NCBI GenBank assembly: GCA_008636095.1
Contig: VSJD01000096.1
Location: 1 to 19,454 of the forward strand
Length of the DNA stretch: 19,454 bases
DNA from: Kiritimatiellota bacterium
Lineage (GTDB): Bacteria; Verrucomicrobiota; Kiritimatiellia; JAAZAB01
Direction of reading: 5' to 3'
This document shows, in pieces, positions 5,949 to 19,454 of this stretch. The notes beneath the pieces were generated by a model, which was not told the origin of the DNA, searched no databases, and was given only the letters and a program-made list of their open reading frames with translations. Within the stretch, counting starts at the first letter, position 1; each line of letters begins with the position of its first letter. The position numbers and the translations under genes were made by a program.

Positions 5949-5961
5949 GGATGCTTCGGCC

Positions 5962-6033
5962 GGTGCCGACGACTCGGCCGGTGCCGACGACTCGGCCGGT
6001 GCCGACGACTCGGCCGGTGCCGACGACTCGGCC
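5962..6033 (+). repeat. Four perfect 18-bp hairpin units in the rsmH leader
   Basis: The unit GGTGCCGACGACTCGGCC occurs four times without mismatch (5962-5979, 5980-5997, 5998-6015, 6016-6033), flanked by partial copies (CGGCC before, GGTG after). Each unit contains the mini-hairpin GCCGA-CGAC-TCGGC. The array ends 7 nt before the rsmH ribosome-binding site (GGAGG, 6041-6045). It lies between genes if rsmH starts at 6056. If translation began at the ATG at 5951 it would be read as repeated RPVPTT. Confidence 0.9.
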
Positions 6034-6055
6034 GGTGTCTGGAGGAAGGGCGCGC

Positions 6056-6997
6056 ATGCATACGCCGGTCATGGTGCGGGAAATCCTGACCTTGCTGGCA
6101 ATTCGGCCGGATGGCACGTACGTGGATGGCACCGTGGGGGGTGGGGGGCATGCTCGCGCGATTCTGGAACGGTTAGGCCCTCGTGGCTTTCTGTTGGCAC
6201 TGGATCGCGATACGAACGCCATCGCGATAGCACGTGAAGCTTTGGTGGTATGGTCGGCGCAGTGTCGGTTTGAACAGGGAAATTTTGCCGATCTAAAGCC
6301 TCTGGCAGAACGGCATGGTCTTCAGGCGCTGGACGGTGTGCTCCTCGATTTGGGTATGTCGTCTCTGCAGGTGGACCAGGCCGAGCGGGGCTTCAGTTTT
6401 ATGCAGGATGGGCCTCTGGATATGCGCATGGACCTGCACCAGCCGACAACGGCCGCCCATTTGGTTGCTTCACTGGGCGAGGAGGCCTTGGCCGAGATCA
6501 TTCGCTCCCTGGGCGATGAGCTGGCCTCGCGCCGGATTGCGCGGGCGATTGTGCGGGAACGCCGGCAGGGGGCGATCCAGACCACTGGGCGTCTCGCGGA
6601 CCTGGTGGTTCGCGTGCTGGGGGCGCGGCACGGGCGGATTCATCCGGCTACGCGCACGTTCCAGGCGTTGCGGATGGCTGTCAACCGCGAGCTGGAATCA
6701 TTGACCGCGGGGTTGGAGGCGGCAATCGGCTTACTGAAGTCGGGGGGGCGTCTGGCGGTTCTGAGCTATCACAGCCTGGAAGATGGCTGTGTCAAACGAA
6801 TAGGGAAGGAGCACATTGGCCGGTGGGTGTCCCTGCCGGCCGGGGGCGAGCGCTGGGAAGGAACCCAGCCGCTTGTGAGGTGGATTACGCGAAAGCCGTT
6901 AACGGCTTCCCCTGAAGAAATTTTACGGAACCCGAGATCACGATCAGCCAAATTACGTGTAATCGAAAGGATAGACTTCAATCATGGCCAAGCATAA
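6056..6997 (+). CDS. rsmH: 16S rRNA (cytosine-1402-N4)-methyltransferase RsmH (MraW)
   Basis: RsmH methylates N4 of C1402 in the decoding centre of 16S rRNA using S-adenosylmethionine. The protein is 313 residues, normal for the family. It starts with the expected MHTPVMVREIL. The SAM-binding loop DGTVGGGGHA is at about residues 24-33, ALDRD at 48-52, LLDLGMSSLQVD near residue 100, and FQALRMAVNREL and LAVLSYHSLED towards the C-terminus. The ATG at 6056 has GGAGGAAGG at 6041-6049. The open frame extends upstream through the 18-bp array, but the family never carries that extension. The last 14 nt overlap the ftsL-like gene, indicating coupled translation. Confidence 0.95.
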   Translation: MHTPVMVREILTLLAIRPDGTYVDGTVGGGGHARAILERLGPRGFLLALDRDTNAIAIAREALVVWSAQCRFEQGNFADLKPLAERHGLQALDGVLLDLGMSSLQVDQAERGFSFMQDGPLDMRMDLHQPTTAAHLVASLGEEALAEIIRSLGDELASRRIARAIVRERRQGAIQTTGRLADLVVRVLGARHGRIHPATRTFQALRMAVNRELESLTAGLEAAIGLLKSGGRLAVLSYHSLEDGCVKRIGKEHIGRWVSLPAGGERWEGTQPLVRWITRKPLTASPEEILRNPRSRSAKLRVIERIDFNHGQA

Positions 6998-7373
6998 CCG
7001 GCGCAAAAGAACCGAAGGTTTTGTAATCGCACTACCCTGGGCGGCGGTACTGATGGGCGTCGTGGTCCTGATGCTCATGTACGTCTGGCTCGATGCGCGC
7101 GGTCAGGCCCTGGGTAGCCGGATTAAATTTTCGGAGCAACAGCGCGCGAAAATCCAGAAGCGGTATGATTACGAATTGTGGAAATGGGAAACCCTGAAGT
7201 CGCCGTCCAGTATCGAAAAGGCGCTCTCCCAGAACCGTGTCGCCATGATTTGGCCGGAAGAAGGCCGTTTAGTCCGTCTGCAGGAACCGGAACTGGCCGC
7301 CGAAAACGTGCCCCCCTACAGCCGGCAGATGGCCCAACTTGCGCAGATCCCAAGGTTCGTTGTGAATGATTGA
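6984..7373 (+). CDS. ftsL: FtsL-like cell-division protein
   Basis: A 129-residue bitopic membrane protein. It has a basic cytoplasmic tail (KHNRRKR), one membrane segment at about residues 13-36, and a helical region likely to form a coiled coil (about 40-80). The following MIWPEEGRLVRL is typical of FtsL-type proteins. FtsL forms a complex with FtsQ and FtsB and activates FtsW-FtsI at the septum. Sequence similarity within the family is low, so the call rests mainly on topology and on position between rsmH and ftsI. It overlaps rsmH by 14 nt and ftsI by 8 nt, a fully coupled arrangement. Confidence 0.7.
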   Translation: MAKHNRRKRTEGFVIALPWAAVLMGVVVLMLMYVWLDARGQALGSRIKFSEQQRAKIQKRYDYELWKWETLKSPSSIEKALSQNRVAMIWPEEGRLVRLQEPELAAENVPPYSRQMAQLAQIPRFVVND

Positions 7374-9153
7374 ATGGAGATATAGGAACCGCCTGATCGG
7401 GTTGGCCATACTTATGATGCTGGCGTTGGTCGGCGTCAGCACCCGCTTGGTCTATCTGCATTTTCACCTTGGCCCCGGCGTGGATCGTGGCGCCCGGATC
7501 ACCGCCATGCGTCAGTTCCGGGAAAGGCTGGCGGTGGTTCGCGGAAAAATCCTGGATCGTAATGGCAACGTGCTGGCCCTGGATCTGGTGAAAAAAGAAC
7601 TGTGCGCCAGCCCCATCGAAATTGCCAGCAACCGCAATGCCCAGGCCGTGGCCGAAGCCATCGGCCGGATCCTGAACGTGGAGCCGTGTGTGCTCCTGGA
7701 CCGGATTGTTAACCGGCCGGAGCGTCAGTTCGTCTATGTGACCGGGTTCGGCCATGTGCTTGAGGACGATCAGGCCGAGGCCCTGCGGCGCGCGCAACTG
7801 CCCGGCGTGTTCCTGAAGGACGCCATGGTGCGATCGTATCCGCGCGGCGCCAGTCTGTGTCATGTGCTCGGGTACGTCAACCTGGAGCCGGAGCGCAACG
7901 GCTGTGCCGGGATCGAACAGCGCTGGGACCGTTATCTGCGGGGCGTGCCGGGGTTGCTGGTCGGTGAGCGGGACGGCCGCCGCCATGAAATGTATAACCG
8001 CCGCCTGCTGGAAATCAAGTCGTGCCCCGGCGCCAATGTCACGCTGACGATTGACCAGTATGTGCAGTATATCGTCGAGCGCGCGCTGGAAAACGCCGTG
8101 CGCGAACAGCGGGCCACGGCGGCCTGGGCGATCGTCGAACGCGTGCGCACGGGCGAAATCCTGGCGATGGCCAATATCCCCGCTTTTGATCCGCGCGCGT
8201 TTCGGGCGACGGCGCCGGATGCCATGCGCAATCGCTGTATTGCCAACAATTACGAGCCGGGGTCCACGTTCAAGGTAGTCGTCGTGGCGGCCGCCCTGAA
8301 TGAAAAACTGGTGGCGCCCGCCCAGATATTCGATTGTGAAAACGGCACTTGGTTTTACGCGCGGCGTCCCTTGCGCGATTTTCATCCCTATGGCAATCTT
8401 TCCGTGGCCGATATCATCAAAAAATCCAGCAATATCGGCGCGGCCAAAATCGCCGTACTTCTGGGCAATGCGCGTCTATATGCCTACTTGAAGCAATTTG
8501 GCATTGGCGAACGCACCGGCATCGAATTGCCGGGCGAGGAGGCCGGTTTGCTGTATCCGGTCTCGAAATGGACCGCCATTTCGCCGACGCGGATCGCAAT
8601 CGGCCATGAAGTGGCGGTCACCGCCTTGCAAATGTTGGGTGTGCTCTGTACCATTGCCAACGATGGGGTGCGTATGAAGCCGCAGATTATCCAGCAGGTT
8701 ACCGATGCGGATGGCCGTGTGCTGTATCAGCAGTCCCCCGTGGCCATCAGTCAGCCTATCCGTCCGGATACGGCCCGGCTCATGAAAAGCCTGCTGACCC
8801 GTGTCACCGAAGAGGGCGGTACGGGTGCCCGCGCCCGGGTCGAAGGCTATAACGTGGGCGGCAAAACCGGCACCGCCCAGAAGGCCATCCCGGGTGGCTA
8901 TTCCGATACGCTGAACATGTCCTCCTTCATGGGATTTATTCCGGCCGAGGATCCACAGCTCGCGATCATCGTGGTCCTGGATGAACCCAGCAACGATGTG
9001 CGTACGGGCGGGTACGTGGCCGGGCCGGTGTTCAAGGAAATTGCCGAACAATCCGTGCGGTACCTGGATATTGCGCCCCAGCGGAGGTGTCCGCCCCAGG
9101 GCGAAGTCAACGTGGCCAGTCAGCCCGGACCGGGTGTGAACCTTGGAATTTGA
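7366..9153 (+). CDS. ftsI: Peptidoglycan D,D-transpeptidase FtsI (class B penicillin-binding protein)
   Basis: This is the septal transpeptidase that crosslinks peptidoglycan made by FtsW. The protein is 595 residues with one N-terminal membrane anchor (about residues 9-27). A dimerisation/pedestal domain follows, containing the usual RGKILDRNGNVLA. The transpeptidase domain has all three active-site motifs: S300-T-F-K303 (in EPGSTFKV), S354-S-N356 and K500-T-G502. There is no PASTA domain. The start at 7366 overlaps the ftsL-like stop by 8 nt. A gap of about 440 bp follows, so this may be the end of one transcriptional unit. Confidence 0.95.
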   Translation: MIEWRYRNRLIGLAILMMLALVGVSTRLVYLHFHLGPGVDRGARITAMRQFRERLAVVRGKILDRNGNVLALDLVKKELCASPIEIASNRNAQAVAEAIGRILNVEPCVLLDRIVNRPERQFVYVTGFGHVLEDDQAEALRRAQLPGVFLKDAMVRSYPRGASLCHVLGYVNLEPERNGCAGIEQRWDRYLRGVPGLLVGERDGRRHEMYNRRLLEIKSCPGANVTLTIDQYVQYIVERALENAVREQRATAAWAIVERVRTGEILAMANIPAFDPRAFRATAPDAMRNRCIANNYEPGSTFKVVVVAAALNEKLVAPAQIFDCENGTWFYARRPLRDFHPYGNLSVADIIKKSSNIGAAKIAVLLGNARLYAYLKQFGIGERTGIELPGEEAGLLYPVSKWTAISPTRIAIGHEVAVTALQMLGVLCTIANDGVRMKPQIIQQVTDADGRVLYQQSPVAISQPIRPDTARLMKSLLTRVTEEGGTGARARVEGYNVGGKTGTAQKAIPGGYSDTLNMSSFMGFIPAEDPQLAIIVVLDEPSNDVRTGGYVAGPVFKEIAEQSVRYLDIAPQRRCPPQGEVNVASQPGPGVNLGI

Positions 9154-9174
9154 TTTGGAGTAGCCGTTCACGGC

Positions 9175-9313
9175 TTGAAATTGAAAACTGGAAAATGGAA
9201 ATTAGGGGAAGAGATGGGCAGACAGAAATCAAAAAGCCGAAATTGGATATTTGAAATTAGGAAGAAAGGTTCCGATTCTGCGCTAATTTCTAATTTCCAG
9301 TTTCCAATTTCAA
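9175..9313. repeat. A+T-rich fold-back element, copy 1
   Basis: The left arm at 9175-9205 and the right arm at 9283-9313 pair at 28 of 31 positions. The right arm contains TTTCTAATTTCCAGTTTC, also present in the fold-back upstream of ftsW (16720-16896). The adjoining sequence (AACGTTTCGTAAATGCTTGC, about 9312-9331) is also related to the one beside copy 2, so this is a dispersed family. Confidence 0.75.
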
Positions 9314-9402
9314 CGTTTCGTAAATGCTTGCGATTCGGATTGTTTTTATCAGTTCGATCTTAGCCTGCATTATTCATAAAAAACAGATTTTCATTCATAA
9401 GT

Positions 9403-9427
9403 ATTTCAAAGCCAACGGCTTTGAAAT
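9403..9427. repeat. 25-bp palindrome, 11-bp arms and 3-nt centre
   Basis: ATTTCAAAGCC (9403-9413), centre AAC, GGCTTTGAAAT (9417-9427), a perfect inverted repeat. It has the same geometry as 4676-4700 with unrelated arm bases, and CGCCCTG follows in both. Confidence 0.7.
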
Positions 9428-9529
9428 TTTGACGCGCCCTGATGCTCTTCGTGATCGGGGCTTGCTCAAGGCTAACCCTGAGCACGAGCCCTGAGCAAAG
9501 TTGAAGGGCTCACGGCGAAGCCCTTCGGG

Positions 9530-9570
9530 TGACCTATTCATGAAGAACTAAAATCTTCATGAATAGGTCA
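9530..9570. repeat. Hairpin with 17-bp perfect arms upstream of murE
   Basis: TGACCTATTCATGAAGA (9530-9546), a 7-nt loop, then TCTTCATGAATAGGTCA (9554-9570). It ends 28 bp before the murE ATG and would form a stable stem in the 5' leader if transcription comes from upstream. There is no T-tract after it on the + strand, so a terminator is not supported. Confidence 0.7.
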
Positions 9571-9597
9571 GGTTAGGCGTTATTCTAGAAAGCCATC

Positions 9598-11073
9598 ATG
9601 AAACTTAGCACACTGCTCGCAGTCATCAAACCGCTGGCAGTCGGCCGGCCAGGGGATCCGGACATCAAGGGCTTGGCGTATGACTCTCGCAAGATCAAAC
9701 CGGGATTTATTTTCTTTGCCCTGCATGGCCAAAACCAGGATGGGAACCAGTTTGTCCCGGATGCGGTGACGCGGGGTGCCGCGGCCGTGGTCTCAGACCA
9801 GGCCGCCCCGGTCAGCCATGGTCCCGCGATCATCATCCGTGTTAGCGATCCGCGGCAGGCCATGGCGGAGCTTGCCGCCGCGTTTAATAATAACCCCTCG
9901 GCCAATCTGCAGGTGGTTGGCATCACGGGCACCAATGGCAAAACCACCACGGCATTCATGCTGCGGGATATTTTTACCGATGCCGGCCGCCATACGGGCC
10001 TGATCGGTACGGTGGCCTACGAAATCGGTGGCCGTACGATTCCGGCCAATCGTACAACCCCTGAATCCGTTGACCTGCAGGATATGCTGGCCCAGATGGT
10101 GCATGTCGGTTGCCAGAGTGCTGTCGTGGAGGTCTCGTCGCACGCGCTGATCCAGAAGCGTGTCGGGGGTATTGATTTCGATGTTGCCGTATTTACCAAC
10201 CTGACGCACGACCACCTCGATTACCATGCGACGAAGGAAAATTATTTTCAGGCCAAGGTGCTGTTATTCCGGGGCCTCAGCCGGTGCCATAAGAAACCAG
10301 TGGCGGTTGTCAACCTGGATGATCCCTACGGCCGTGAGTTGGTCCGGGATGTGCCGCTCGAGGCGGACCTGATCACCTATGCCACCGGTCAGGATGCCGC
10401 CGTGCGTGCCGTCAATCTGCAAATCACATCCGCCGGCAGTGTCTTTGAAGTACATAGTCCCTGGGGAGAAGCCCAGGTCAAGCTGAAACTCCTGGGTCAT
10501 TACAATGTCAGTAACACGCTGGCGGCCTTGGCCGTGGCGGGGGCAACTGGTGTGCCGCTGGCGCGCGCGGCCCAAGTGGTGTCCCAGATGATGGCCGTTC
10601 CCGGTCGGTTGGAGGAAATTTCCATCGAGGGCGGGTTCCAGGTATTTGTGGATTATGCACACACGGAGGATGCCTTGCATAACGTGCTGTCCACGTTGCG
10701 CGAGATCACGCCAGGAAAGCTTATCGTGGTCTTCGGATGCGGCGGTAACCGCGACCGTAAAAAGAGACCGCTCATGGGCGCCGTGGCCACGCGCCTGGCC
10801 GATTATGTTTTGCTGACGTCCGATAATCCCCGCAAGGAAAACCCAATCGAGATCATCGCCCAGATCCGCGCGGGATGCAAGCACAGCGACAACGTGGAAG
10901 TTGTCGAGGACCGCCACGAGGCCATCATCCGTGCGCTTTCCATGGCGGAGAAAGGCGATGTGGTGCTGATCGCCGGCAAGGGCCATGAAAACTACCAGGA
11001 GTTTACCAATACCGTTATTCCCTTTGACGACCGGCAGGTCGTACGGGAATGTCTGGGAATTAGTCATGCCTAA
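9598..11073 (+). CDS. murE: UDP-MurNAc-L-Ala-D-Glu:meso-diaminopimelate ligase MurE
   Basis: MurE is the cytoplasmic ATP-dependent ligase that adds the third residue of the peptidoglycan stem peptide. It has 491 residues, the normal length. The ATP loop GTNGKTTT is at residues 111-118, TTPES (UDP-sugar binding) at 153-157, and EVSSHAL near 178-184. The Lys expected to be carbamylated is K220 in YFQAK. The specificity motif D409-N-P-R412 marks a meso-DAP-adding enzyme rather than a Lys-adding one. The start at 9598 gives the expected N-terminus with only a weak ribosome-binding site. The 3' end overlaps murF by 8 nt. Confidence 0.96.
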   Translation: MKLSTLLAVIKPLAVGRPGDPDIKGLAYDSRKIKPGFIFFALHGQNQDGNQFVPDAVTRGAAAVVSDQAAPVSHGPAIIIRVSDPRQAMAELAAAFNNNPSANLQVVGITGTNGKTTTAFMLRDIFTDAGRHTGLIGTVAYEIGGRTIPANRTTPESVDLQDMLAQMVHVGCQSAVVEVSSHALIQKRVGGIDFDVAVFTNLTHDHLDYHATKENYFQAKVLLFRGLSRCHKKPVAVVNLDDPYGRELVRDVPLEADLITYATGQDAAVRAVNLQITSAGSVFEVHSPWGEAQVKLKLLGHYNVSNTLAALAVAGATGVPLARAAQVVSQMMAVPGRLEEISIEGGFQVFVDYAHTEDALHNVLSTLREITPGKLIVVFGCGGNRDRKKRPLMGAVATRLADYVLLTSDNPRKENPIEIIAQIRAGCKHSDNVEVVEDRHEAIIRALSMAEKGDVVLIAGKGHENYQEFTNTVIPFDDRQVVRECLGISHA

Positions 11074-12544
11074 TTTTGATGCCCGGGAAGTGGCGCAATG
11101 GACCGGCGGAAAGTGGTGCTTTGGCCAGCCCGACGCTATCGCGGGGGTGTCCACCGATAGCCGCACGCTGTGCCACGGTGCCCTGTTCGTGGCTTTGCGT
11201 GGGCCATTATTTAATGGGCACTCCTTTATCGCTGAAGCCTTTGCGCGGGGTGCGGTCGGCGCGGTGATCAGTGAAAATACTTGCGCCATGCCGCGCGAGA
11301 ATTGTCCTTTGTTGCGCGTACCGGATACCGCACAGGCTTTGCGGGATATGGCCGCTAATTATCGCCGTCGCATCCAGGTTGAAATTGTGGCCGTCACGGG
11401 CAGTGTCGGTAAGACCACGGTGAAAGAAATGGTGGCCGATGTCCTGGCGCGGCGCCTGAGGGTTGTCCGCACGCGGGGTAACTGGAACAACGAAATAGGA
11501 TTGCCGTTGAGCATGTTGGCTATGGAACCGGAAACCCGTGTCGGCGTCTTCGAGCTCGGCATGAACCATCCGGGGGAACTGGCGTTGCTCTGTCGCATGC
11601 TCCAGCCCGATTGGGGCCTGGTAACGACCATTGGCCCGGTACACTTGGAATTTTTTAAGTCCGTGGAGGCGATTGCCGCCGAGAAAAGTACATTGCTCAA
11701 GAGCCTGCCTGCCGGGGGCGTGGCGGTTCTGCGTTGCGATGAACCATATTTTGAAATTTTGCGCGCCGCTGCCCCGGACCGGGTTATTACCCTGGCGTTG
11801 GGCGGCACCAGCCGTGTTGACGGCACCAGCCGTGTTGACGGCACCAGCCGTGTTGACGGCACCAACCGCGTTGGCGGCGAGGCGGATTATATAGGTGCTC
11901 CTCCGGATGCGCAGGGCCAAATGGAAATCCGCGAACGCGCGACAGGTGAAGCCTGTCGCCTGCAGGCGCCCCTGCCGGGTGCGCACCACGCGGCCAATAC
12001 CCTGTATGCCGTGGCCGTGGGTCGTGCGCACGGCCTGGCCTGGGAGGAAATCCGGGCCGCGTTGGAGAGCTATCGTTCCCCGCCCATGCGCTGGGAACGG
12101 CAGATTGTGGCCGGTGTAACCATCATTAATGATGCCTATAACGCCAATCCCGTAAGCATGGCCGCCGCCTTGCGGACCTTCGCGGAATTACCGCTTGCGG
12201 AATTGCCGGTTGCGGGAGGGCGCTGGCTGGTGTTGGCGGGCATGCTGGAATTGGGGCTTTCGGAAGAGCAGTGGCACCGGGACTTAGGGAAGTCGCTTGC
12301 GCCGGGGCCATGGACTGGTATTATAACGATCGGATCGCTGGGGGCTGTTATTGCCCGCGAAGCCGTGAACGCCGGCGTGAACGCGGCGCGCGTGTTTCCC
12401 TGTGCCGACAATGGCGCGGCGGCCGAAGTCCTGAGCCGATGCCTGCAGCCCGGCGATGCCGTGCTGGTGAAAGCCTCCCGCGGCCAGCATCTGGAACAGG
12501 TTCTGGCGTTGTGGAAGGAACGGGTGGCCGCGAGCGGGATTTGA
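11066..12544 (+). CDS. murF: UDP-MurNAc-tripeptide:D-Ala-D-Ala ligase MurF
   Basis: MurF adds D-Ala-D-Ala to complete the cytoplasmic UDP-MurNAc-pentapeptide. The protein is 492 residues, longer than the usual 450 or so. The ATP loop TGSVGKTT is at 111-118, followed by RGNWNNEIGLPLSML, ELGMNHPGEL, and INDAYNANPVSM in the last third. The ATG at 11066 overlaps the murE stop by 8 nt. An in-frame ATG at 10985 lies deep within murE and is not needed. Odd: residues 247-270 are four copies of a GTSRVD-type hexapeptide encoded by the 18-bp hairpin array, and a second small repeat (AELPL/AELPV) lies near residue 373. Both probably fall in surface loops. Confidence 0.95.
   Translation: MPNFDAREVAQWTGGKWCFGQPDAIAGVSTDSRTLCHGALFVALRGPLFNGHSFIAEAFARGAVGAVISENTCAMPRENCPLLRVPDTAQALRDMAANYRRRIQVEIVAVTGSVGKTTVKEMVADVLARRLRVVRTRGNWNNEIGLPLSMLAMEPETRVGVFELGMNHPGELALLCRMLQPDWGLVTTIGPVHLEFFKSVEAIAAEKSTLLKSLPAGGVAVLRCDEPYFEILRAAAPDRVITLALGGTSRVDGTSRVDGTSRVDGTNRVGGEADYIGAPPDAQGQMEIRERATGEACRLQAPLPGAHHAANTLYAVAVGRAHGLAWEEIRAALESYRSPPMRWERQIVAGVTIINDAYNANPVSMAAALRTFAELPLAELPVAGGRWLVLAGMLELGLSEEQWHRDLGKSLAPGPWTGIITIGSLGAVIAREAVNAGVNAARVFPCADNGAAAEVLSRCLQPGDAVLVKASRGQHLEQVLALWKERVAASGI
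11804..11875 (+). repeat. 18-bp hairpin units within murF (three perfect, one decayed)
   Basis: GGCACCAGCCGTGTTGAC occurs at 11804-11821, 11822-11839 and 11840-11857, with a degenerate fourth copy at 11858-11875. On the other strand the unit is GGTGCCGTCAACACGGCTGGTGCC-like. That is the rsmH-leader unit in reverse orientation with a few changes. Its mini-hairpin GCCGT-GTTG-ACGGC keeps a perfect stem although the loop-closing pair is changed. It is read in frame as GTSRVD. Confidence 0.9.
12182..12211 (+). repeat. 15-bp tandem repeat in murF
   Basis: GCGGAATTACCGCTT (12182-12196) is followed by GCGGAATTGCCGGTT (12197-12211), two mismatches in 15, read as AELPL-AELPV. The first unit contains GCGG-AATTA-CCGC. 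It is a smaller relative in style, not in sequence, of the 18-bp arrays. Confidence 0.55.
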
Positions 12545-12574
12545 GGGAAGGCAAGATGCTTTGTAACTCACAAG

Positions 12575-12757
12575 GTGTTCAGTGTTCGGTATTCAGAACC
12601 GGAAGAATCAGGTTGCCGACGCATATATTTTTCCATGCCGTCCCGACTCTGTGAGATCGGGATCTCAAACAATTGAGATACAAAATGTTGCATCCCTTTT
12701 AATCAAGCGGGATTACTATTCTTTCAGCCTGAACCCCGAACCCTGAATACCGAATAC
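12575..12757. repeat. Fold-back element between murF and mraY
   Basis: GTGTTCGGTATTCAG (12582-12596) pairs at 14 of 15 positions with CTGAATACCGAATAC (12743-12757), with further loosely matching sequence outside it. A smaller palindrome TGAGATC-GG-GATCTCA lies at 12652-12667. It fills most of the 226-bp gap. No ORF or clear promoter is seen in it. Confidence 0.65.
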
Positions 12758-12770
12758 CTGAGTAATCACG

Positions 12771-13895
12771 ATGCTTTATTACCTCCATTTGCTTTCGGAC
12801 GATATTTCCTATTTCCGCGTCTTTCAATACATTACCGTCCGGATTGTGGCCGGCGCCGGCACGGCGTTCCTGATCAGCCTGGTGTTGGGCCCCTGGGTCA
12901 TCCGCCAGCTAACGCGCCTGTGCGGCGGCGACCGCTATTGCGGCTGTGACCGCTATAAGGAAGACCTGCCCACGCTCGAGATTCTGCATGGCGAAAAGAA
13001 AAAAAATACCCCAACCATGGGCGGTCTGCTTATTATCCTGTCAATCGTTGGCGCCTGCTTGCTCTGGGCCGTCCTCACCAGTCCCATTCTTTGGCTGGCC
13101 CTGTTGACCTTGTGCGCGATGGGCGCCATCGGGTTTGCCGACGACTATATCAAGACGGTTAAACGGGATTCGAAAGGATTGCGCGCTCGAACCAAACTGC
13201 TGTTACAGGCGCTCTGGGTGGTGCTCCTTACAGGGGTTCTGCTGGTCCTGCCGGCCACCCGCGATCATGTGCGCCAGTTGATGGTACCCTTTTTTAAAAC
13301 GCCTATTATTCCGGAAATGTGTCTGGTATGCGTTTTTCTGTTTGTGGCCCTGGTTGTGATCGGCGCCAGCAATGCCGTTAACCTGACCGATGGCCTGGAT
13401 GGACTGGCTATCGGCTGTGCCAGTTCCGTGACGCTGGCATACATGGTCATGGCGTACGTGGCCGGACATGCCGTACTTGCGGCGTATCTGCAGGTTCCTA
13501 ATGTGCCTGAAGCGGGTGAGTTGGCCGTCTTCTGCGGATGCATGTTGGGCGCCTGCCTCGGCTTCCTCTGGTTTAACTGCCATCCGGCTCTTGTTTTCAT
13601 GGGCGATACCGGCAGTTTGGCGCTGGGCGGTGCAATTGGCTGTGTGGCTGTGCTGATCAAGCAGGAGCTGACGTTGGTTGTCGTCGGCGGGGTGTTCGTG
13701 CTGGAAGCCTTAAGCGTTATCCTGCAGGTGGGTTTCTTTAAATGGAAGCGCCGCCGTATTTTTATATGCTCCCCAATTCATCATCACTTCGAATTGAAGA
13801 AAGGGCCTTGGAGTGAAACGCAGGTGACGGTCCGGTTTTGGATCATTTCCATCATTTTTGCGCTCATCGGCGTCCTTCTGCTGAAAATCCGGTAG
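12771..13895 (+). CDS. mraY: Phospho-MurNAc-pentapeptide translocase MraY
   Basis: MraY is an integral membrane enzyme that transfers phospho-MurNAc-pentapeptide to undecaprenyl phosphate, forming lipid I. It has 374 residues with about ten hydrophobic segments. Family motifs are TPTMGG (near residue 80), FADDYIK with the catalytic Asp pair, NAVNLTDGLDGLAIG, FMGDTGSLALGG and PIHHHFE near the C-terminus. Odd: just before TPTMGG, in the first cytoplasmic region, residues 51-62 read CGGDRY-CGCDRY from an 18-bp tandem repeat, and the usual GP.SH/K-type sequence is replaced. The ATG at 12771 is preceded by a fold-back element without a strong ribosome-binding site. Confidence 0.95.
   Translation: MLYYLHLLSDDISYFRVFQYITVRIVAGAGTAFLISLVLGPWVIRQLTRLCGGDRYCGCDRYKEDLPTLEILHGEKKKNTPTMGGLLIILSIVGACLLWAVLTSPILWLALLTLCAMGAIGFADDYIKTVKRDSKGLRARTKLLLQALWVVLLTGVLLVLPATRDHVRQLMVPFFKTPIIPEMCLVCVFLFVALVVIGASNAVNLTDGLDGLAIGCASSVTLAYMVMAYVAGHAVLAAYLQVPNVPEAGELAVFCGCMLGACLGFLWFNCHPALVFMGDTGSLALGGAIGCVAVLIKQELTLVVVGGVFVLEALSVILQVGFFKWKRRRIFICSPIHHHFELKKGPWSETQVTVRFWIISIIFALIGVLLLKIR
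12921..12956 (+). repeat. 18-bp tandem repeat in mraY
   Basis: TGCGGCGGCGACCGCTAT (12921-12938) is followed by TGCGGCTGTGACCGCTAT (12939-12956), two mismatches in 18. Each copy has GCGG/CCGC arms. The sequence is unrelated to the GGTGCCGAC family, but the unit length and the 14+4 layout are the same. Confidence 0.7.
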
Positions 13896-13904
13896 CTATA
13901 AAAT

Positions 13905-14083
13905 TTAACCGCAAAGAACGCAGAGATCGCAAAGACAAGAAAGTCAGGATTTAATATTCATTTATCTGCCTGCAACCCGCCTGCATCGCCGGGCGAAGCA
14001 CGGCGGGCAGGTCAGCGTGATCTTGTCAGCAGACAGATAAAAAACTTGCAGATCTCTGTGCTCTTTGCGTTTTTTGCGGTTAA
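13905..14083. repeat. Nested fold-back element between mraY and murD
   Basis: Three inverted repeats are nested around one centre. The outer arms start TTAACCGCAAAGAACGCA (13905 on) and pair at about 25 of 30 positions with 14054-14083. The middle arms TTTATCTGCCTG (13961-13972) and CAGACAGATAAA (14030-14041) pair at 11 of 12. The inner CCCGCC/GGCGGG pair lies between them. The outer arms are of the AACCGCAAAGAACGCA type common in intergenic DNA of environmental bacteria. CAACCCGCCTGCA (13973-13985) recurs in reverse in the gap before ftsW. Confidence 0.75.
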
Positions 14084-14138
14084 TATCGCTTTGACGATTT
14101 TGTGAGGTTGTTTATTTGAAACACTATATCCGGCTCAT

Positions 14139-15521
14139 ATGCGCCATTACCAAAAAGCCCTTGTCCTTGGCTTGGCTTCCAGTGGCGAAGCCGCCACCCG
14201 GCTCCTGCTTGCCGAGGGCACGCAGGTCGTTGTCATGGATCGCGGGGATTCGGCAATCCTGTGCCGGCGCGCCGCCGCTTTGCAGGCTCTGGGCGCCGAG
14301 GTGCACCTGGGAGTAACGGTGCCGCCGCGTGGAAATTTTGAAATCGCCATCGTCAGTCCCGGTATTGCGGCCTCATCCGACACGGTGCAGTCCGTTATGG
14401 CCCGGGGCATTCCGGTTATTACGGAACTGGAACTGGGCTGGAGCCGCTGTGCTTGTCGGGTGTTGGCAATCAGCGGCTCGAACGGTAAAAGCACGCTCGT
14501 TAAACTGTGCGCGGAAGCGCTGGCGCAGGCTGGTCGTTCGGTGGCGATTGCCGGGAATTACGGCCCGCCGGTCTCCGCCGTGGTCAGTGAACACCGGCCG
14601 TGTCGACGGCGCCGGCCGCTGGACTGGCTGGTGCTGGAAGTCAGTTCCTTTCAATTGGAAACCGTGCAGGCGTTCCGTCCCGACGTGGGGGTCTTGCTGA
14701 ACGTGACGCCGAATCACCTGGACCGCCATGGGGATTTCCAAACCTACCGGCAGATCAAGTCCCGCTTGTTTGCGCGCATGACACCGGCGGATACCGGTGT
14801 TATGGACCGGAACATCCTGCCGGAGATTCGGGCCCTGGCCGGTTCGCCCAATCGCTGGATCACCGCGGGTGTTAACCCGACGCCGGGTGTGCACCCGACG
14901 CCGGAATTCTTTTATCAGTCCGGCGCGATTCACAATTCGCTTGGCCGGGAAAAAGTTGAATTACGCGGTACGCAGTTCGATAACGAGATCATGGGCCTGA
15001 CCGCCGCTGCTGCCGCCGCCGCGCTCGCGGCCTGCGGCGTGGAGGGACGGTGCCGACGACTCGGCCGGTGCCTGGCGGCGGCCGCGCGCGTTTTCCAGCC
15101 CCTGCCGCATCGCCTGCAGAATGTCGGCGCGGTGCGTGGTATTCGGTTTGTGAATGATTCCAAGGCCACGAATCTTGCGGCCATGATGGCGGCGCTGACC
15201 ATGACGCGTGGACCGGTCCGGCTCATTGCCGGTGGCCTGCCCAAGTGCGAATCCTATGGGCCGGCCCGCGAACTGCTGGCTGAAAAAGTGGTGACTGTTT
15301 ACCTGATTGGCCAGGCGGCCGAAGCCATGGCTACGGCCTGGCGTGGAGCGGTGCCCTGCGTGATGGGCGGAACGCTTGAGCAGGCTGTGGCAAAGGCTTG
15401 GCGGGAAGCTAAGCCGGGCGATACGATTTTACTTTCCCCTGCCTGCGCCAGCTTCGATCAATTCCGCAGTTTTGAGGAACGCGGCGAGTGTTTTATAAGT
15501 GCGATTCGAGCGCTGTCATAA
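14139..15521 (+). CDS. murD: UDP-MurNAc-L-alanine:D-glutamate ligase MurD
   Basis: MurD is the cytoplasmic ATP-dependent ligase that adds D-Glu to UDP-MurNAc-L-Ala. It has 460 residues. The N-terminal uracil-binding domain begins LVLGLASSGEAA. The ATP loop is GSNGKST at 113-119, then LEVSSFQLE, NVTPNHLDRHG, FVNDSKATN and the C-terminal LLSPACASFDQF. Three insertions of repeat DNA interrupt weakly conserved loops: residues 151-160 (EHRPCRRRRP), 244-255 (GVNPTPGVHPTP) and about 304-312 (GRCRRLGRC). The catalytic motifs are intact, so the enzyme should be active. The start at 14139 fits the family; the ribosome-binding site is weak. Confidence 0.94.
   Translation: MRHYQKALVLGLASSGEAATRLLLAEGTQVVVMDRGDSAILCRRAAALQALGAEVHLGVTVPPRGNFEIAIVSPGIAASSDTVQSVMARGIPVITELELGWSRCACRVLAISGSNGKSTLVKLCAEALAQAGRSVAIAGNYGPPVSAVVSEHRPCRRRRPLDWLVLEVSSFQLETVQAFRPDVGVLLNVTPNHLDRHGDFQTYRQIKSRLFARMTPADTGVMDRNILPEIRALAGSPNRWITAGVNPTPGVHPTPEFFYQSGAIHNSLGREKVELRGTQFDNEIMGLTAAAAAAALAACGVEGRCRRLGRCLAAAARVFQPLPHRLQNVGAVRGIRFVNDSKATNLAAMMAALTMTRGPVRLIAGGLPKCESYGPARELLAEKVVTVYLIGQAAEAMATAWRGAVPCVMGGTLEQAVAKAWREAKPGDTILLSPACASFDQFRSFEERGECFISAIRALS
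14590..14618 (+). repeat. 18-bp hairpin unit in murD, reverse orientation (site 1)
   Basis: AACACCGGCCGTGTCGAC (14590-14607) plus 11 nt of a following unit (GGCGCCGGCCG) match the murF form of the unit, including the stem GCCGT-GTCG-ACGGC. Here the reading frame is shifted relative to murF, giving a Cys/Arg-rich peptide instead of GTSRVD. Confidence 0.75.
14868..14903 (+). repeat. 18-bp tandem repeat in murD (site 2)
   Basis: GGTGTTAACCCGACGCCG (14868-14885) and GGTGTGCACCCGACGCCG (14886-14903), two mismatches in 18, are read as GVNPTP-GVHPTP. Each copy with its preceding base(s) forms CGGGT-GTTA-ACCCG or CGGGT-GTGC-ACCCG, a 5-bp stem with a 4-nt loop. This is the same geometry as the GGTGCCGAC family with other bases. 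Confidence 0.8.
15049..15072 (+). repeat. 18-bp hairpin unit in murD, forward orientation (site 3)
   Basis: One copy identical to the rsmH-leader unit (15049-15066), followed by GGTGCC of a next copy. It is read in a third way, as GRCRRLGRC, in the loop before the ARVFQPLPHR segment. Confidence 0.85.
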
Positions 15522-15547
15522 GCGATGGGTTGCCGCTGAAAAAAAAC

Positions 15548-15576
15548 TTGACAATGCCATGGCGAAGATGGATATT
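15548..15576 (+). promoter_or_regulatory. Candidate promoter of the LysM lipoprotein gene
   Basis: TTGACA (15548-15553), a 17-nt spacer and GATATT (15571-15576, 4 of 6 to the -10 consensus). It lies 27 nt after murD and about 100 nt before the LysM gene, leaving a 5' leader that contains the perfect palindrome at 15606-15639. Confidence 0.5.
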
Positions 15577-15605
15577 TTTAAGTAGTCAATTCAACGCATA
15601 GGAAT

Positions 15606-15639
15606 TTTCCGCCGGAGGCGGATCCGCCTCCGGCGGAAA
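15606..15639. repeat. 34-bp perfect palindrome in the leader of the LysM gene
   Basis: The sequence starts TTTCCGCCGGAGGCG, has GATC at its centre (15621-15624) and ends with the exact reverse complement. As RNA it would be a 15-bp stem with a 4-nt loop, ending 24 nt before the ribosome-binding site. No T-tract follows on the + strand, so it is not a standard terminator. Confidence 0.8.
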
Positions 15640-15673
15640 CAACAGGTCTCATTTAATTATCATAGGAGGAGTA

Positions 15674-16672
15674 ATGAAAACGTCGGTTTTATTAATTACC
15701 GTTGTTGTTATGTTGCACTGCGCCGCTCTCGGGGCTTTGTTCTTCATCCAGGGGTGCGGTACCACGTCCCGAACGGGAACCCCACCTCCAGCGACGACGC
15801 CCATGCCGCCCACGACCAAGGAAGCCGTAAATTACCCGCCGCCGAAGCCGGTGGAAAAGGCGCCGGTCGCCAAGTCCGTGTCCAAGGAATTACCCAAGGC
15901 CTTGGAAACGACGGAATATGTCGTGCGGTCTGGTGACTCTGTCGGGGGCATTGCCAAACAGTATGGAATTTCCAAGGGCGAGATTATTGATCTGAATAAG
16001 ATGTCCGATCCGAACAAACTGCGCATCGGCCAGAAGCTGATGTTGCCGGGACGCCTGAAAATTAAAGCCGCGTCGGCGGCGCCGGCCAAGCACTCAGCGA
16101 AGCCCAAAGCAGTTGAGACCCCAGCCGTTTCGGCGGAGCCGTTGGCGTCTGCGACAGCAGAAACCGTGTCCGCCCCCGTGCCGGCCGTTGGCAATGAGTA
16201 TGTGGTTCAGAAGGGCGATAGTCTTTCCCGGATTGCGAAGAAGTGCGGCACAAAAACAAGTGCCTTGCGGGAAGCCAATCAACTCCGGGGCGATAAGCTG
16301 AAGATCGGGCAGAAGCTTATCATTCCGGAAGCCACGGCCGCGTCGGCGGCACCGGACGCGCCAAGAACCGAAGCGCCCGTGGAAGCGAAACCAGCGGACG
16401 CGCCAGTCGCGCCCCTGACGATTCCAGTGCCGGCGGAGCCGGACGTGTCGGCAGCACCGTCCGCGTTGGCGGAGCCGGCGGTTGCGCCCGTGCCGTCTGC
16501 GGCGCCGGCCAAGCCCGTTACCAATTCGGGCATTACACACATTGTTCAGCCGGGCGAGGATGTCAATTCCGTTGCCAAGCTGTATGCGGTGACCGTGGAT
16601 GAAATCGTTGAGCTCAACCAGTTTGGCGCCAATCGCACGGTTAAGGTGGGGCAACGGCTGATGATTCCCTGA
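15674..16672 (+). CDS. Lipoprotein with three LysM domains
   Basis: A 332-residue exported protein. A hydrophobic signal sequence (residues 4-25) ends in FIQGC, with Cys28 as the likely lipid-modified residue. Gln at -2 is unusual for a lipobox, so an uncleaved anchor is possible. Three LysM modules, which bind the GlcNAc-containing glycan of peptidoglycan, lie at about 81-126 (EYVVRSGDSVGGIAKQYGIS), 175-218 and 288-332. Long Ala/Pro-rich linkers separate them. No hydrolase domain is present, so it probably tethers or organises the wall rather than cutting it. The AGGAGG ribosome-binding sequence (15664-15669) is the strongest in the window. Its place between murD and ftsW suggests a role in division-site wall assembly; that is inference. 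Confidence 0.9.
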   Translation: MKTSVLLITVVVMLHCAALGALFFIQGCGTTSRTGTPPPATTPMPPTTKEAVNYPPPKPVEKAPVAKSVSKELPKALETTEYVVRSGDSVGGIAKQYGISKGEIIDLNKMSDPNKLRIGQKLMLPGRLKIKAASAAPAKHSAKPKAVETPAVSAEPLASATAETVSAPVPAVGNEYVVQKGDSLSRIAKKCGTKTSALREANQLRGDKLKIGQKLIIPEATAASAAPDAPRTEAPVEAKPADAPVAPLTIPVPAEPDVSAAPSALAEPAVAPVPSAAPAKPVTNSGITHIVQPGEDVNSVAKLYAVTVDEIVELNQFGANRTVKVGQRLMIP

Positions 16673-16719
16673 TTACTCCCGTTCAGGATTCAGGGGTTAC
16701 GTTCGTGGTTGTTAATCGT

Positions 16720-16896
16720 CTGAAATTGGAAACTGGAAATTAGAAACCTGCCCGCAATGCTATTCATAGCGCTGCAGGCGGGTTGGCACAGAACCGGAAT
16801 TTTTCTTGCCAGTTTTAAATTTTATTTTTTCGATTCCGAATGCATTCATCAACAGCACGAAAGCGTGAATGCCAAATTTCTAATTTCCAGTTTCAG
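16720..16896. repeat. A+T-rich fold-back element, copy 2, upstream of ftsW
   Basis: The left arm (16720-16746) and right arm (16874-16896) pair except for a 7-nt extra stretch in the left arm. Both contain the word CTGGAAATTAGAAA or its complement, as does copy 1 at 9175-9313. The interior differs: it holds CCTGCCCGC / GCAGGCGGG arms (about 16747-16782) related to the core of the mraY-murD fold-back. A small hairpin GCGTTC-CGT-GAACGC (16896-16910) follows and lies where the ftsW ribosome-binding site should be. Confidence 0.7.
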
Positions 16897-16915
16897 CGTT
16901 CCGTGAACGCTTGCC

Positions 16916-18055
16916 ATGTGGAAAACTCCCACCGTTTTAATTCTCATTGTTCTGCTCCTGCTGGCCCTGGGCATTGTTATGCTGGCCAGCACCAGTGGCA
17001 TCAAGGCCGTAGAGCTCTACGATGATCCGAATTATTTCGTCAAGCGCCAGGCGTTGTGGCTTCTGATGGCAATGGTTGTGGGCGGCTTGGCCTGCAAAAT
17101 AGACTACCATCGCTGGCGTCCCCTGGCGCTGGTTTGCCTCGTGGCGGCGGTTAGTCTCCTGGCGCTGGTGCTGGTTCCCGGCATCGGCTCCAAGATCGGC
17201 GGCAGTCGGCGCTGGTTCCATCTCGGGATCCTCAGTGTTCAGCCCTCAGAGTTGGCCAAGTTCTCGATGATTTTGGTCCTGGCGTGGTGGATGGCGCGCG
17301 AGAAATGGCATGTGCGTGAGTTCTGGCGGGGCGCCGTGGCGCCGCTGGTCATAATCGGGCTGGTGGCCGGCCTGGTCTTTATCGAGCCCGATTTCGGCAC
17401 GGCCTTGCTCTGTGGCGTGGTGGGGCTGGCGATCCTGTTTGCGGGTGGGACGCGGTTGGTCTATCTGGCCGTGTTTGCCGTAATCGGTTTCAGCGGGTTC
17501 GTGGTGGCCGTCATGCGCGATCCCGTGCGCATGAACCGGATTGTGGCGTTTTTAAATCCGGAGCAGTATGCGCAGACGTATTCCTTCCAACTGCTGAGCG
17601 CGATCAATGCCTTCATTGCCGGTGGCCCCATGGGCGTGGGACTGGGCGGTAGTATCCAGAAGCACTACTATCTGCCGGAGGCGCACACGGATTTTATTTT
17701 CGCCATCATCGGCGAGGAATTGGGCGCCGTGGCCACCCTGGCGGTGGTGCTGATGTTTACCGGGCTTTTTATCTGCGGCTTACGGATCAGCCTGCGGGCG
17801 CCGGATACGTTCGGACGGATACTGGCGTTTGGCATCACCCTGATGATCACCCTGCAGGCCGTCATCAATATCGGGGTGGTCATCGGCCTTCTGCCGACCA
17901 AGGGGTTGCCCCTGCCGTTCATCAGCGCGGGCGGCTCCAGCCTGATCATTTCCCTGCTGGAGATCGGCGTGCTGTATAATATTGCCCTGCATGCGCACGG
18001 TCGGGCGGGGGATGCGGAAACCCAGTCCATCAAAGACCGCGTTCATCAATTCTGA
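16916..18055 (+). CDS. ftsW: Peptidoglycan glycosyltransferase FtsW
   Basis: FtsW is the SEDS-family polymerase that builds septal glycan strands from lipid II together with FtsI. It has 379 residues and about ten membrane segments. Family features are GGSRRWFHLG at 95-104 followed by VQPSELAKF, EPDFGTALL at 157-165, the loop EAHTDFIFAIIGEELG at 255-270 with the essential-type Asp at D259, and LPLPFISAGGSS near the C-terminus. RodA is an alternative name for such proteins, but position in the dcw cluster favours FtsW. The ATG at 16916 has no clear ribosome-binding site; a 6-bp hairpin occupies that position. It converges on the next gene with 13 nt between stops. Confidence 0.93.
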   Translation: MWKTPTVLILIVLLLLALGIVMLASTSGIKAVELYDDPNYFVKRQALWLLMAMVVGGLACKIDYHRWRPLALVCLVAAVSLLALVLVPGIGSKIGGSRRWFHLGILSVQPSELAKFSMILVLAWWMAREKWHVREFWRGAVAPLVIIGLVAGLVFIEPDFGTALLCGVVGLAILFAGGTRLVYLAVFAVIGFSGFVVAVMRDPVRMNRIVAFLNPEQYAQTYSFQLLSAINAFIAGGPMGVGLGGSIQKHYYLPEAHTDFIFAIIGEELGAVATLAVVLMFTGLFICGLRISLRAPDTFGRILAFGITLMITLQAVINIGVVIGLLPTKGLPLPFISAGGSSLIISLLEIGVLYNIALHAHGRAGDAETQSIKDRVHQF

Positions 18056-18068
18056 CGGCGGCCAGTGG

Positions 18069-19241
18069 TTATTGACTGCAGCCTCGCAGATCAATACTCC
18101 AGGTATCTACAACCTCGGGTCCTTGGGTCACATAATACCGATCAAAGAGATTGATCGTCGGGTCGCAATGCGACGTTACCAGTTCCAGGACGGCGCCCAG
18201 TGGCGGCATACCGACGGAACCTGAGCCTGTGACGCGTCCATATTCATCGCCGAACCAGTCATACTGCAGACCGGCATATTCCGGATTGATTATCTGTGGA
18301 ACGGCGCCGTCCCGATAGAGTGCTTTCAAGCCCGCATCTACGGTGACATATCCGTCCTGGTTGACGCTGACAACCGTCGTGAGCAGACGCAGGGCCGGGC
18401 CGAAGGCCGTGAAGCGGCTATTGTCTTCCGCCGATCCGATGGCCAGGTACTCCGCATCCATACAGGCATAAGATCCCGCCTGCAATTCTGTGAGTTCGGG
18501 AATGTCGAGGTCAATATCGGATGTGCCCGTACCGGATGCGCTGAATACGGTGCAGGTTGGCACCTTGGTCTGCAAGGCGTGAAATATTCCGGTTGCTTTT
18601 TGCAGGCATTGATGCGAGCCGTTTTTTCGGTCGTTATAAGAATGGATGTGTTGTACCTGGCCGGCATAGGCCTGAATACCCCGCAGGCGGAGATTGCTGT
18701 GGGCCAGAATATGATCGGCCAGGTTGATCACGCCGTTCGGTGCCGACAACTCGGCCGGTGCCGACAACTCGGCCGGTGCCGACGACTCGGCCGGTGATAC
18801 ACCCGTTCGATGTAATCCGATATCCACGTCGAGCAGGACGTCCATGGTTAAGCCTTGATCACCCAAGGCGGCGCTAAGCAGGTCAATCGGGACTGGGTGA
18901 TCTACCACCACCATGAGGGAAGGCGCCTTGGCGCGCAAAGCTACCAGCCGGGCGATTTTTTGCTTCGTCACCACGGGGCCGGTAATAAGGATGTTTTCGA
19001 TGCCTGCCCGGCACAGGGCCTCGGCTTCCGATACCTTTGCCGCGCAGATGCCGATGGCGCCGATCTCCATTTGACGTCGGGCTAATAGCGAGCATTTATG
19101 AGTCTTGGCATGCGGGCGCAAGCGCTTGCCGGCGCGCTCCGTCAGGGCCTGCATTTTTCGAAGGTTCTGGTCCAGGATATCCAGATCCAGCACCAGGCAT
19201 GGGGTATCCAGGTCGGTTTTCCGTTGAAGGGTGCCATTCAT
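18069..19241 (-). CDS. DSD1-family PLP enzyme, D-threonine aldolase/D-serine dehydratase type
   Basis: This 390-residue protein has the alanine-racemase-like barrel followed by a D-serine-dehydratase-like C-terminal domain. The PLP lysine is K46 in RPHAKTHK. DVDIGLHRTGV (138-148) lines the barrel. The metal site is H358-C-D360 in SHCDPTINLFD. The His-x-Asp form is that of D-threonine aldolases, whereas eukaryotic D-serine dehydratases have His-x-Cys, so an aldolase acting on D-threonine or other beta-hydroxy D-amino acids is favoured. Residues about 149-170 (start SPAESSAPAELS) are encoded by the 18-bp hairpin array and lengthen the loop after GLHRTGV. The gene points into the end of the dcw cluster. 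Its ATG has only a weak ribosome-binding site. Confidence 0.85.
   Translation of the reverse strand: MNGTLQRKTDLDTPCLVLDLDILDQNLRKMQALTERAGKRLRPHAKTHKCSLLARRQMEIGAIGICAAKVSEAEALCRAGIENILITGPVVTKQKIARLVALRAKAPSLMVVVDHPVPIDLLSAALGDQGLTMDVLLDVDIGLHRTGVSPAESSAPAELSAPAELSAPNGVINLADHILAHSNLRLRGIQAYAGQVQHIHSYNDRKNGSHQCLQKATGIFHALQTKVPTCTVFSASGTGTSDIDLDIPELTELQAGSYACMDAEYLAIGSAEDNSRFTAFGPALRLLTTVVSVNQDGYVTVDAGLKALYRDGAVPQIINPEYAGLQYDWFGDEYGRVTGSGSVGMPPLGAVLELVTSHCDPTINLFDRYYVTQGPEVVDTWSIDLRGCSQ
18739..18792. repeat. Three 18-bp hairpin units within the D-threonine aldolase-like gene
   Basis: GGTGCCGACAACTCGGCC at 18739-18756 and 18757-18774, and GGTGCCGACGACTCGGCC (identical to the rsmH-leader unit) at 18775-18792, then a partial GGTG. 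The stem GCCGA/TCGGC is perfect in all; only the loop varies (CAAC or CGAC). On the coding (minus) strand it is read as repeated AELSAP. Confidence 0.9.
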
Positions 19242-19454
19242 GCGATGTTTTTCCAGACAGCGAGTCGAATTCGGATGTTTTTAACACAAAGGCACATGGA
19301 CGCAAAGTTTATGATGTTGGAATCCGGTCTTTGTGTACTTCCATGAGAAGGCTTGTCAAGAAGCGACTGACGTGGCAGGCGCTGGGCTCCGATCCTGAGG
19401 CATGTTATGCTTCCATTCGCACTCTATAATGGGTCATTAATTCAGACCCGGTGC
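19242..19454. other. Gap at the right edge with short repeats
   Basis: No credible gene. AACACAAAGGCACATGG near 19280 and CTTTGTGTACTTCCATGAGA near 19330 form a loose fold-back, of the CACAAAGGCAC type seen in other environmental genomes. Near the edge there is an isolated TATAAT (19425-19430) without a convincing -35, and a GGGTC (19434-19438) / GACCC hairpin. A short open frame ends at 19429 but has no protein-like features. Confidence 0.45.

Follow-up and report, generated by a model that had tools for sequence, protein, structure and literature searches.

A genus-specific 18-bp hairpin repeat with exact insertion in genes of Kiritimatiellota bacteria

We characterized a repeated DNA unit of 18 bp in a Kiritimatiellota bacterium of an uncultured genus, starting from one contig of 19,454 nucleotides (VSJD01000096.1 of assembly GCA_008636095.1; this whole stretch is referred to as the window). 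The unit consists of a hairpin with a 5-bp stem and a 4-nt loop followed by a 4-nt linker (5-4-5-4) and stands singly or in tandem arrays, mostly inside genes. The repeat is real, genus-specific, very small and exactly inserted, as judged from its fixed geometry across the genome and from filled and empty sites in closely related species.

Units in the window and their geometry across the genome

An original prediction, made from the letters of the window, had named five places with such units, and all five contain them in the numbers it gave. Four identical units (GGT-GCCGA-CGAC-TCGGC-C; 5962..6033, plus strand), located by motif and tandem scan, precede the likely start of rsmH (6056..6997, plus; Pfam Methyltransf_5, 4e-101). 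The murF gene (11066..12544, plus; three Mur ligase domains in Pfam) carries an in-frame 72-bp insertion, delimited by alignment (11808..11879, minus), with three units GCCGT-caac-ACGGC-tggt and a decayed fourth; the three clean units were placed at 11810..11863 (minus) by motif search. In murD (14139..15521, plus; Pfam MurD-like N, Mur ligase M and C domains), alignment revealed two exact 18-bp insertions of single units, GCCGT-CGAC-ACGGC at 14596..14613 (minus) and GCCGA-CGAC-TCGGC at 15049..15066 (plus). Three units (54 bp; 18739..18792, plus), translated AELSAP, lie within a D-threonine-aldolase-like gene on the minus strand (18069..19241; Pfam Ala_racemase_N and D-ser_dehydrat). The predicted gene names agree with these domains, and stem, loop and the swapped loop-closing pair (GCCGA/TCGGC versus GCCGT/ACGGC) are as described. 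Overlooked were a sixth array in murD (14866..14904), whose two units CGGGT-gtta-ACCCG-acgc / CGGGT-gtgc-ACCCG-acgc at 14866..14901 (plus) have unrelated letters and equal geometry, a 15-bp duplication in murF and the genome-wide spread. Whether the rsmH units lie in a leader, as had been claimed, depends on the start codon: they are upstream of the likely ATG at 6056, behind a Shine-Dalgarno-like GGAGG (6041), which makes a leader position likely, whereas a frame opened at TTG 5870 by a mechanical open reading frame call runs through them. The motif GCCGACGACTCGGC, at up to 3 mismatches, had 16 matches in the window compared with a shuffle mean of 3.31 and a maximum of 11; none of 200 shuffles reached 16.

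The source genome (G000) comprises 3.8 Mb in 357 contigs, one of which is the window. It was compared with four congeners, namely G001 (outgroup), G002 (a partial genome, KR13 bin), G003 and G004 (LacPavin metagenome-assembled genome, MAG). The KR13 and LacPavin relatives are metagenome bins, and the best MurD segment is 90% identical in KR13_N2.mb.73 (G002, labelled 'Verrucomicrobia') and 85% identical in LacPavin_0419 MAG_56_158 (G004, labelled 'Kiritimatiellaeota'). Tandem arrays were scanned in 81 contigs of the source genome (892,969 bases) and 489 kb of G004 (32 stretches). As 12 of the 81 contigs (window included) and 11 of the 32 stretches were chosen for motif matches on them or on their contig, and these contain 33 of the 47 period-18 arrays found, rates are to be taken from the neutrally chosen DNA only.

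The units are not confined to the window, a point the original prediction had left to a whole-genome search. With at most one mismatch, GCCGACGACTCGGC occurs 26 times in the source genome (8 in the window) versus 2 times for the pattern read backwards. The 81 contigs hold 33 period-18 arrays while triplet-shuffled DNA holds none; for neighbouring periods 5 (period 16), 3 (17), 0 (19) and 2 (20) arrays were obtained. Eleven period-18 arrays lie in the 69 contigs not picked by motif (743,657 bases). In the neutrally chosen DNA of both genomes, 8 of 14 period-18 arrays show a perfect 5-4-5-4 hairpin (expected 0.41 under a null that shuffles letters within units and contains no codon model), and in all sampled DNA 35 of 47 do so (expected 1.6). 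Since hairpin axis and stem were picked for perfect pairing, pairing percentages follow by construction; the number of distinct arms does not. The 35 perfect arrays comprise 27 distinct units and 14 distinct arms (e.g. GCCGA, GCCGG, CCCGG, GCGGT, GTTGC, GTGCG), and a stricter scan of all loci, further ones included, gave 46 arrays. With 34 distinct units and 18 arms in this set, a single sequence family, as originally proposed, is ruled out, and conservation concerns mainly the 5-4-5-4 geometry. The oriented consensus reads GCCGN-CRNC-N'CGGC-YGGN', and the bases at the loop edges (s1 and s4) are complementary in none of the 35 arrays. Chance or base composition is excluded as an explanation by the window shuffles, the array scan of shuffled DNA and the neutral sample. 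Outside masked arrays there is no large hidden pool of single units, as 5/4/5 and 5/5/5 hairpins are about equally frequent in the source genome (1291 vs 1299) and in G004 (707 vs 713).

To follow the arrays across genomes we used a covariance model of two hairpins (R1), built from 20 array pieces of the source genome and G004 and none of G002 or G003. With overlapping registers of one array tallied separately and 124 candidates scored per genome, R1 matches numbered 49 in the source genome, 26 in G004, 24 in G002 and 6 in G003, and none were found in G001, in 5 same-family genomes or in 48 same-class genomes. Within the genus, 4 of 5 genomes thus have matches, compared with 0 of 53 others of the class. 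Among 288 genomes of the phylum, the source genome and G004 are the two that match, with 25 candidates scored each, so that weak arrays could escape. Beyond the two nearest relatives, 46 loci of other genomes, most of them distant, contained no period-18 array in 771 kb, and no perfect-hairpin array was present in 104 kb of G001.

Exact presence and absence between congeners

The original prediction had called for a comparison of orthologues for exact insertion or excision, and orthologues do differ by exactly 18 bp or multiples thereof. In 91,910 aligned columns (source genome against G004 stretches and against LacPavin and KR13 loci), clean gaps of 18 bp occurred nine times, of 36 bp twice and of 54 and 72 bp once each, while all other lengths of at least 16 bp that were seen occurred once each. 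Shorter clean gaps were 1 bp (15 times), 3 bp (13), 6 bp (3), 9 bp (1), 12 bp (6) and 15 bp (2). On inspection, 10 of the 13 gaps of 18 bp or multiples proved to be hairpin units or arrays, the remaining 3 being unrelated to them, with the murD 14596-14613 event counted in two comparisons.

Five-genome alignments at the window sites (source genome and G001 to G004) show that all six aligned 18-bp sites vary between congeners in presence or unit number. The 72-bp murF array (11808-11879) and the murD unit at 14596-14613 are absent from all four congeners and were therefore most likely gained. The murD unit at 15049-15066 is shared with G002 and absent from G001, G003 and G004. The 54-bp array of the D-threonine-aldolase-like gene is missing from G002 and G004, the only congeners aligning there. 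Upstream of rsmH, the four equal units of the source genome correspond to three unequal ones in G003 and none in G004 and G001, with G002 unaligned.

The sixth site, murD 14866, is informative with regard to how an array may start. Here, G003 has one perfect hairpin (CGGGT-GTTT-ACCCG), and two hairpins at a distance of 18 bp are present in the source genome, G002 and G004; the stems are CGGGT/ACCCG in the source genome and CGGGC/GCCCG in G004 (L120). In G001 the site is of single length, its hairpin is poor, and an insertion peculiar to this genome lies next to it. From the aligned sequences the array looks like a duplication of exactly one hairpin-bearing 18-mer, and loss in G003 would be a less parsimonious alternative. 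In G001 (L279, G001:C7), we also observed a long insertion in or near the murD ortholog, flanked by a near-repeat of TAGGCGTCAG.

Flanks and inserts share letters at several insertion sites. At murD 15049, the letters CGGTGCC are already present in the empty site of G003, and they stand on both sides of the inserted unit. A check for the terminal inverted repeats and transposase-made target-site duplication of miniature inverted-repeat transposable elements (MITEs) registers this 7-bp direct repeat, but it is part of the unit itself and of the G003 empty site. The distance over which insert and flank can slide was taken for five insertions, a set that excludes array expansions and the rsmH array. 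It amounts to 7 nt at murD 15049, 6 nt at locus L020 (contig 50 of the source genome) and 5 nt in the D-threonine-aldolase-like gene, where random insertion is expected to give at least 5 nt in 0.8% of cases; the other two are considered below. The L020 unit, GTGGC-cgtc-GCCAC-cgca, is absent in G004, and relatives of it (2-3 mismatches) are found in a three-unit array of the source genome (C146:8701-8754), which is therefore a possible donor.

Host genes, strand and other repeats

The original prediction had linked the units to cell-wall genes. This does not hold, as arrays occur in frames with widely varying Pfam domains, cell-wall genes being only some of them; cell-wall specificity is rejected. 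Eighteen of 20 scanned array-bearing open frames have a Pfam match and 2 have none. With gene names inferred from domains, the hosts are a MurC-MurB fusion (G004), CheA, CheW, CheR, HypF, DsbD, an ABC family member, transglutaminase-like, ComEC-like, solute-binding, phage-integrase-family, radical SAM, TatD and RsmE-like (G004) proteins, a protein with a pilin-like motif, an amidase, a TSP3 repeat protein and GlnE (G004). The MurC-MurB fusion frame of G004 (L193:5290-8181, 964 codons) is a hot spot gene, carrying six of the 14 period-18 arrays of the G004 sample with at least three stem families. We further noted an 18-bp hairpin array in mutS of both the source genome (G000:C227:5962-5993) and G004 (C35:46687-46718), where the R1 matches fall inside the MutS matches or at the point where these are split.

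Each of the 47 arrays is enclosed by a stop-to-stop open frame that measures 139 codons or more, the rsmH array being probably leader. Insertions are tolerated in genes because 18 nt equal six codons. Orientation by spacer consensus relative to the longest open frame is sense for 14 and antisense for 21 of 35 arrays, and 22, 7 and 6 of these have an arm beginning at codon position 1, 2 and 3, respectively. The use of both strands and of differing frames reported from the window is thereby confirmed for the sampled arrays, with all codon phases used. The phase bias probably reflects purifying selection on the host protein. The resulting peptides differ by strand and phase (AELSAP, ADDSAG, GTSRVD, RLEPTS, RPQPGC). 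The view that DNA or RNA rather than a peptide is conserved is in good agreement with this, and the unit as a peptide-level repeat is rejected.

Additional repeats of other kinds were observed. The 15-bp hairpin-bearing duplication in murF (GCGG-aatta-CCGC-tt; 12182..12215, plus), detected by tandem scan and alignment, is present in the source genome and G004 and absent from G001, G002 and G003. It falls into a second, period-15 hairpin class with a 4-bp stem, a 4-nt loop that is often AATT, GATT, CATC or AATC, and a 3-nt linker, with further places at L016 2693 and 3675, L023 885, L088 16240, L192 12758 and L193 13860. Neighbouring units of this class can differ on both stem sides (e.g. AGGC/GCCT beside CGGC/GCCG in L011), and the corresponding scan gave 44 matches, many of them probably chance. 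Period-14 arrays (61 in 892,969 bases of the source genome) form a separate class, nearly all without such a stem, e.g. ATGGTTA- or TCAGAAG-like heptads. Pairs of CCGCC-NNN-GGCGG-type hairpins 2 bases apart lie at window positions 15609-15636 and at L010 8720, L012 3895, L065 2452 and other places, and by BLAST the window stretch from about 15588 to 15639 recurs many times in G003. Positions 19338-19454, the final 117 bases of the contig, have matches of 91% at several sites of both G001 and G003, and this dispersed repeat may mark the point where the assembly broke.

Possible origins and nearest known systems

We tentatively favor, at close to an even chance, a genus-specific, geometry-defined minisatellite of mini-hairpins that arises at the DNA level by hairpin-assisted duplication and microhomology-guided copying, with no dedicated enzyme needed. 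During replication, a nascent strand would fold one 14-nt hairpin and re-anneal one period back, and exactly one 18-nt unit would be gained. If a strand entered an array already present by way of a 5-8 nt match around the linker, and went back where that match recurs next, a whole number of units would be inserted elsewhere, while copying of one arm from the other would keep stems perfect. For SbcD, none of the 14 genomes examined gave a match above cut-off (4 had weak ones), species without arrays included, and this is therefore at most a background condition.

Several observations weigh against this hairpin-assisted duplication. Stem covariation, claimed by the original prediction, is found between arrays, where both sides differ yet pair, including double-sided changes of the template-switch type, but within arrays changes are mostly one-sided: neighboring units show 72 one-sided stem changes, 5 double Watson-Crick and 3 other double changes, with decayed edge units included. 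The slide is just 1 nt at murD 14596-14613, where a 7-nt match (CCGGCCG) is broken by one mismatch, and 0 at murF. Ordinary slippage does not predict the strict 4-nt loop and 4-nt linker or the unpaired loop edges (0 of 35), and the strict spacers would be explained no less well by an 18-nt rolling-circle dumbbell or a Y1-like enzyme. Simple loss of mismatch repair is rejected as an explanation, as MutS is present in the source genome, G003 and G004 (it was not found in the partial G002). Moreover, the loop/linker pair catc/tgga recurs with the arms GCCGG, GCCGA, CCGGC, GCGGA and GTGGC and also with CCCGG, and cacc/tggg recurs with GCGGT, GCCGA, GCCGG, GTCGG and GCGGA, which points to recognition, or to shared ancestry with replaced stems. 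Finally, in 17 of 21 distinct spacer pairs the second loop base is the complement of the first linker base (s2-t1), compared with 8.9 expected (0 of 2000 shuffles).

The coupling extends to s3-t4, complementary in 12 of 21 distinct spacer pairs versus 6.6 expected (p 0.013), so that unit position 7 is coupled with 15 and 8 with 18; both tests are weakened by the relatedness of units. An H-type pseudoknot as the source of the coupling was discarded by reasoning only, since nothing is left to cross the stem. As a separate observation, loop and linker dinucleotides tend to reverse-complement each other (CA with TG, CG with CG; CAAC/TGGT, CATC/TGGA, CACC/TGGG).

Recognition of the spacers would be part of a second reading, a self-propagating element with shape as its heritable identity. 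Any 18-nt 5-4-5-4 fold, regardless of its stem sequence, would then be amplified and dispersed in the genus and the s2-t1 and s3-t4 coupling would belong to the recognized form; we consider this possible but doubtful. The main rival, which we regard as rather unlikely, is a minimal element resembling repetitive extragenic palindromes (REPs), with a YGGN foot and a hairpin, cut and joined as a single strand by a transposase of the Y1 or REP-associated tyrosine transposase (RAYT) type and forming arrays via circular intermediates. The consensus and the loop edges that never pair are in line with it, given that REP cleavage by RAYT is reported to be lost when loop edges pair or the tetranucleotide tag is changed (PMC3733652). 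Y1 transposase matches also exist in the source genome (4), G003 (2) and G004 (2), but they occur as well in G001 and all 5 same-family genomes, none of which yielded arrays, and were not found in array-bearing, partial G002; Y1 presence is thus rejected as the determinant because its distribution does not track the arrays. In addition, feet and arms are highly variable, no R1 match of the source genome or G003 lies on a Y1-gene contig, the only one in G004 is about 145 kb off (positions compared by eye), and the foot of the murD 14866 array departs from the consensus, this array appearing locally born.

Selection of the hairpins as functional sites, either for a DNA- or RNA-binding protein or in regulation, seems improbable to us. 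While stems that vary between arrays yet pair (in a row set chosen for perfect stems), recurring spacers and strong coupling would fit, the units lie in unrelated genes, on both strands and in all phases, and vary in presence or number at six sites. Selection through mRNA should favor G-U pairs. On the coding strand, 470 stem cells in arrays include 3 G-T and 8 A-C, the 454 Watson-Crick cells reflecting array choice; together with the mixed orientation, these small numbers therefore give no sign of mRNA-level selection. It is very improbable that hexapeptide repeats were selected at the protein level with the hairpin as a by-product of GC-rich codons: the six-codon length, the preference for codon position 1 (22 of 35) and a mild excess of units open in all six frames (30 of 36 vs 23.5 expected) point that way, but three phases and both strands yield different peptides, and perfect hairpins make up 8 of the 14 neutral arrays. 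An assembly or amplification artefact has next to no probability, since sites are shared by separate assemblies (murD 15049 in the source genome and G002; the two-unit murD 14866 array in the source genome, G002 and G004), even though the source assembly is fragmented (357 contigs) and the KR13 and LacPavin relatives are metagenome bins.

If hairpin-assisted duplication is indeed the origin, hairpin geometry alone would decide which short DNA pieces multiply within the genes of a lineage, and exact six-codon modules would have been added to core enzymes (MurD, MurF, MurC-MurB, CheA, MutS). Filled and empty sites in close species represent a natural system for hairpin-guided duplication and template switching in bacteria, and double-sided stem changes need not imply a functional RNA. 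Should shape instead be the heritable identity, the unit would rank with the smallest known mobile elements.

The nearest kinds of known systems are small dispersed repeats (SDRs) of cyanobacteria, Rickettsia palindromic elements (RPEs), REPs and template-switch mutations, none of which has been shown to combine all features. Searches of an open-access library listed no title or abstract opening that mentions an 18-bp 5-4-5-4 element, and a paper on reverse-complement triplets (PMC12985086) has a different subject. Perfect inverted repeats of up to 284 bp lie within coding sequence of Nematomorpha mitochondria (PMC6649704); they share the coding location with the present unit and, unlike it, are long and mitochondrial. 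Template switching is reported to create and keep perfect hairpins and to produce reverse-complement copies and double-sided stem changes, but the abstracts mention no fixed 18-nt period or 5-4-5-4 geometry (PMC8794818, PMC8604942). REPs are short hairpins of 20-40 bp with a GTAG or CGTC tag that lie predominantly between genes and sometimes within them and form arrays, for which circular intermediates have been proposed (PMC3733652). The present unit resembles them in its short hairpin with a tetranucleotide foot and in its arrays. It differs in its 18-bp length, in arrays that lie in open frames, in a variable foot that is mostly YGNN (tggt, cggt, tgga, tggg, cgca, tgtt, cgta and others) and in that no linked transposase was found; a search aimed at two-unit arrays rather than single units found no match (R1, E <= 0.01) near the Y1 genes of the source genome, G003 and G004. 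Like SDRs (PMC3116915, PMC2884548), the unit is short, dispersed and inserted or lost as a whole, as seen in the exact 18n differences between congeners; unlike them, it is 18 bp long, occurs in Kiritimatiellota relatives and is defined by geometry (18 arms) and not by one consensus. RPEs, sequence families of about 150 bp, are found in frame within unrelated genes (PMC10969869). The present unit is likewise palindromic and in frame in unrelated genes, but is 18 bp long and amplified in tandem.

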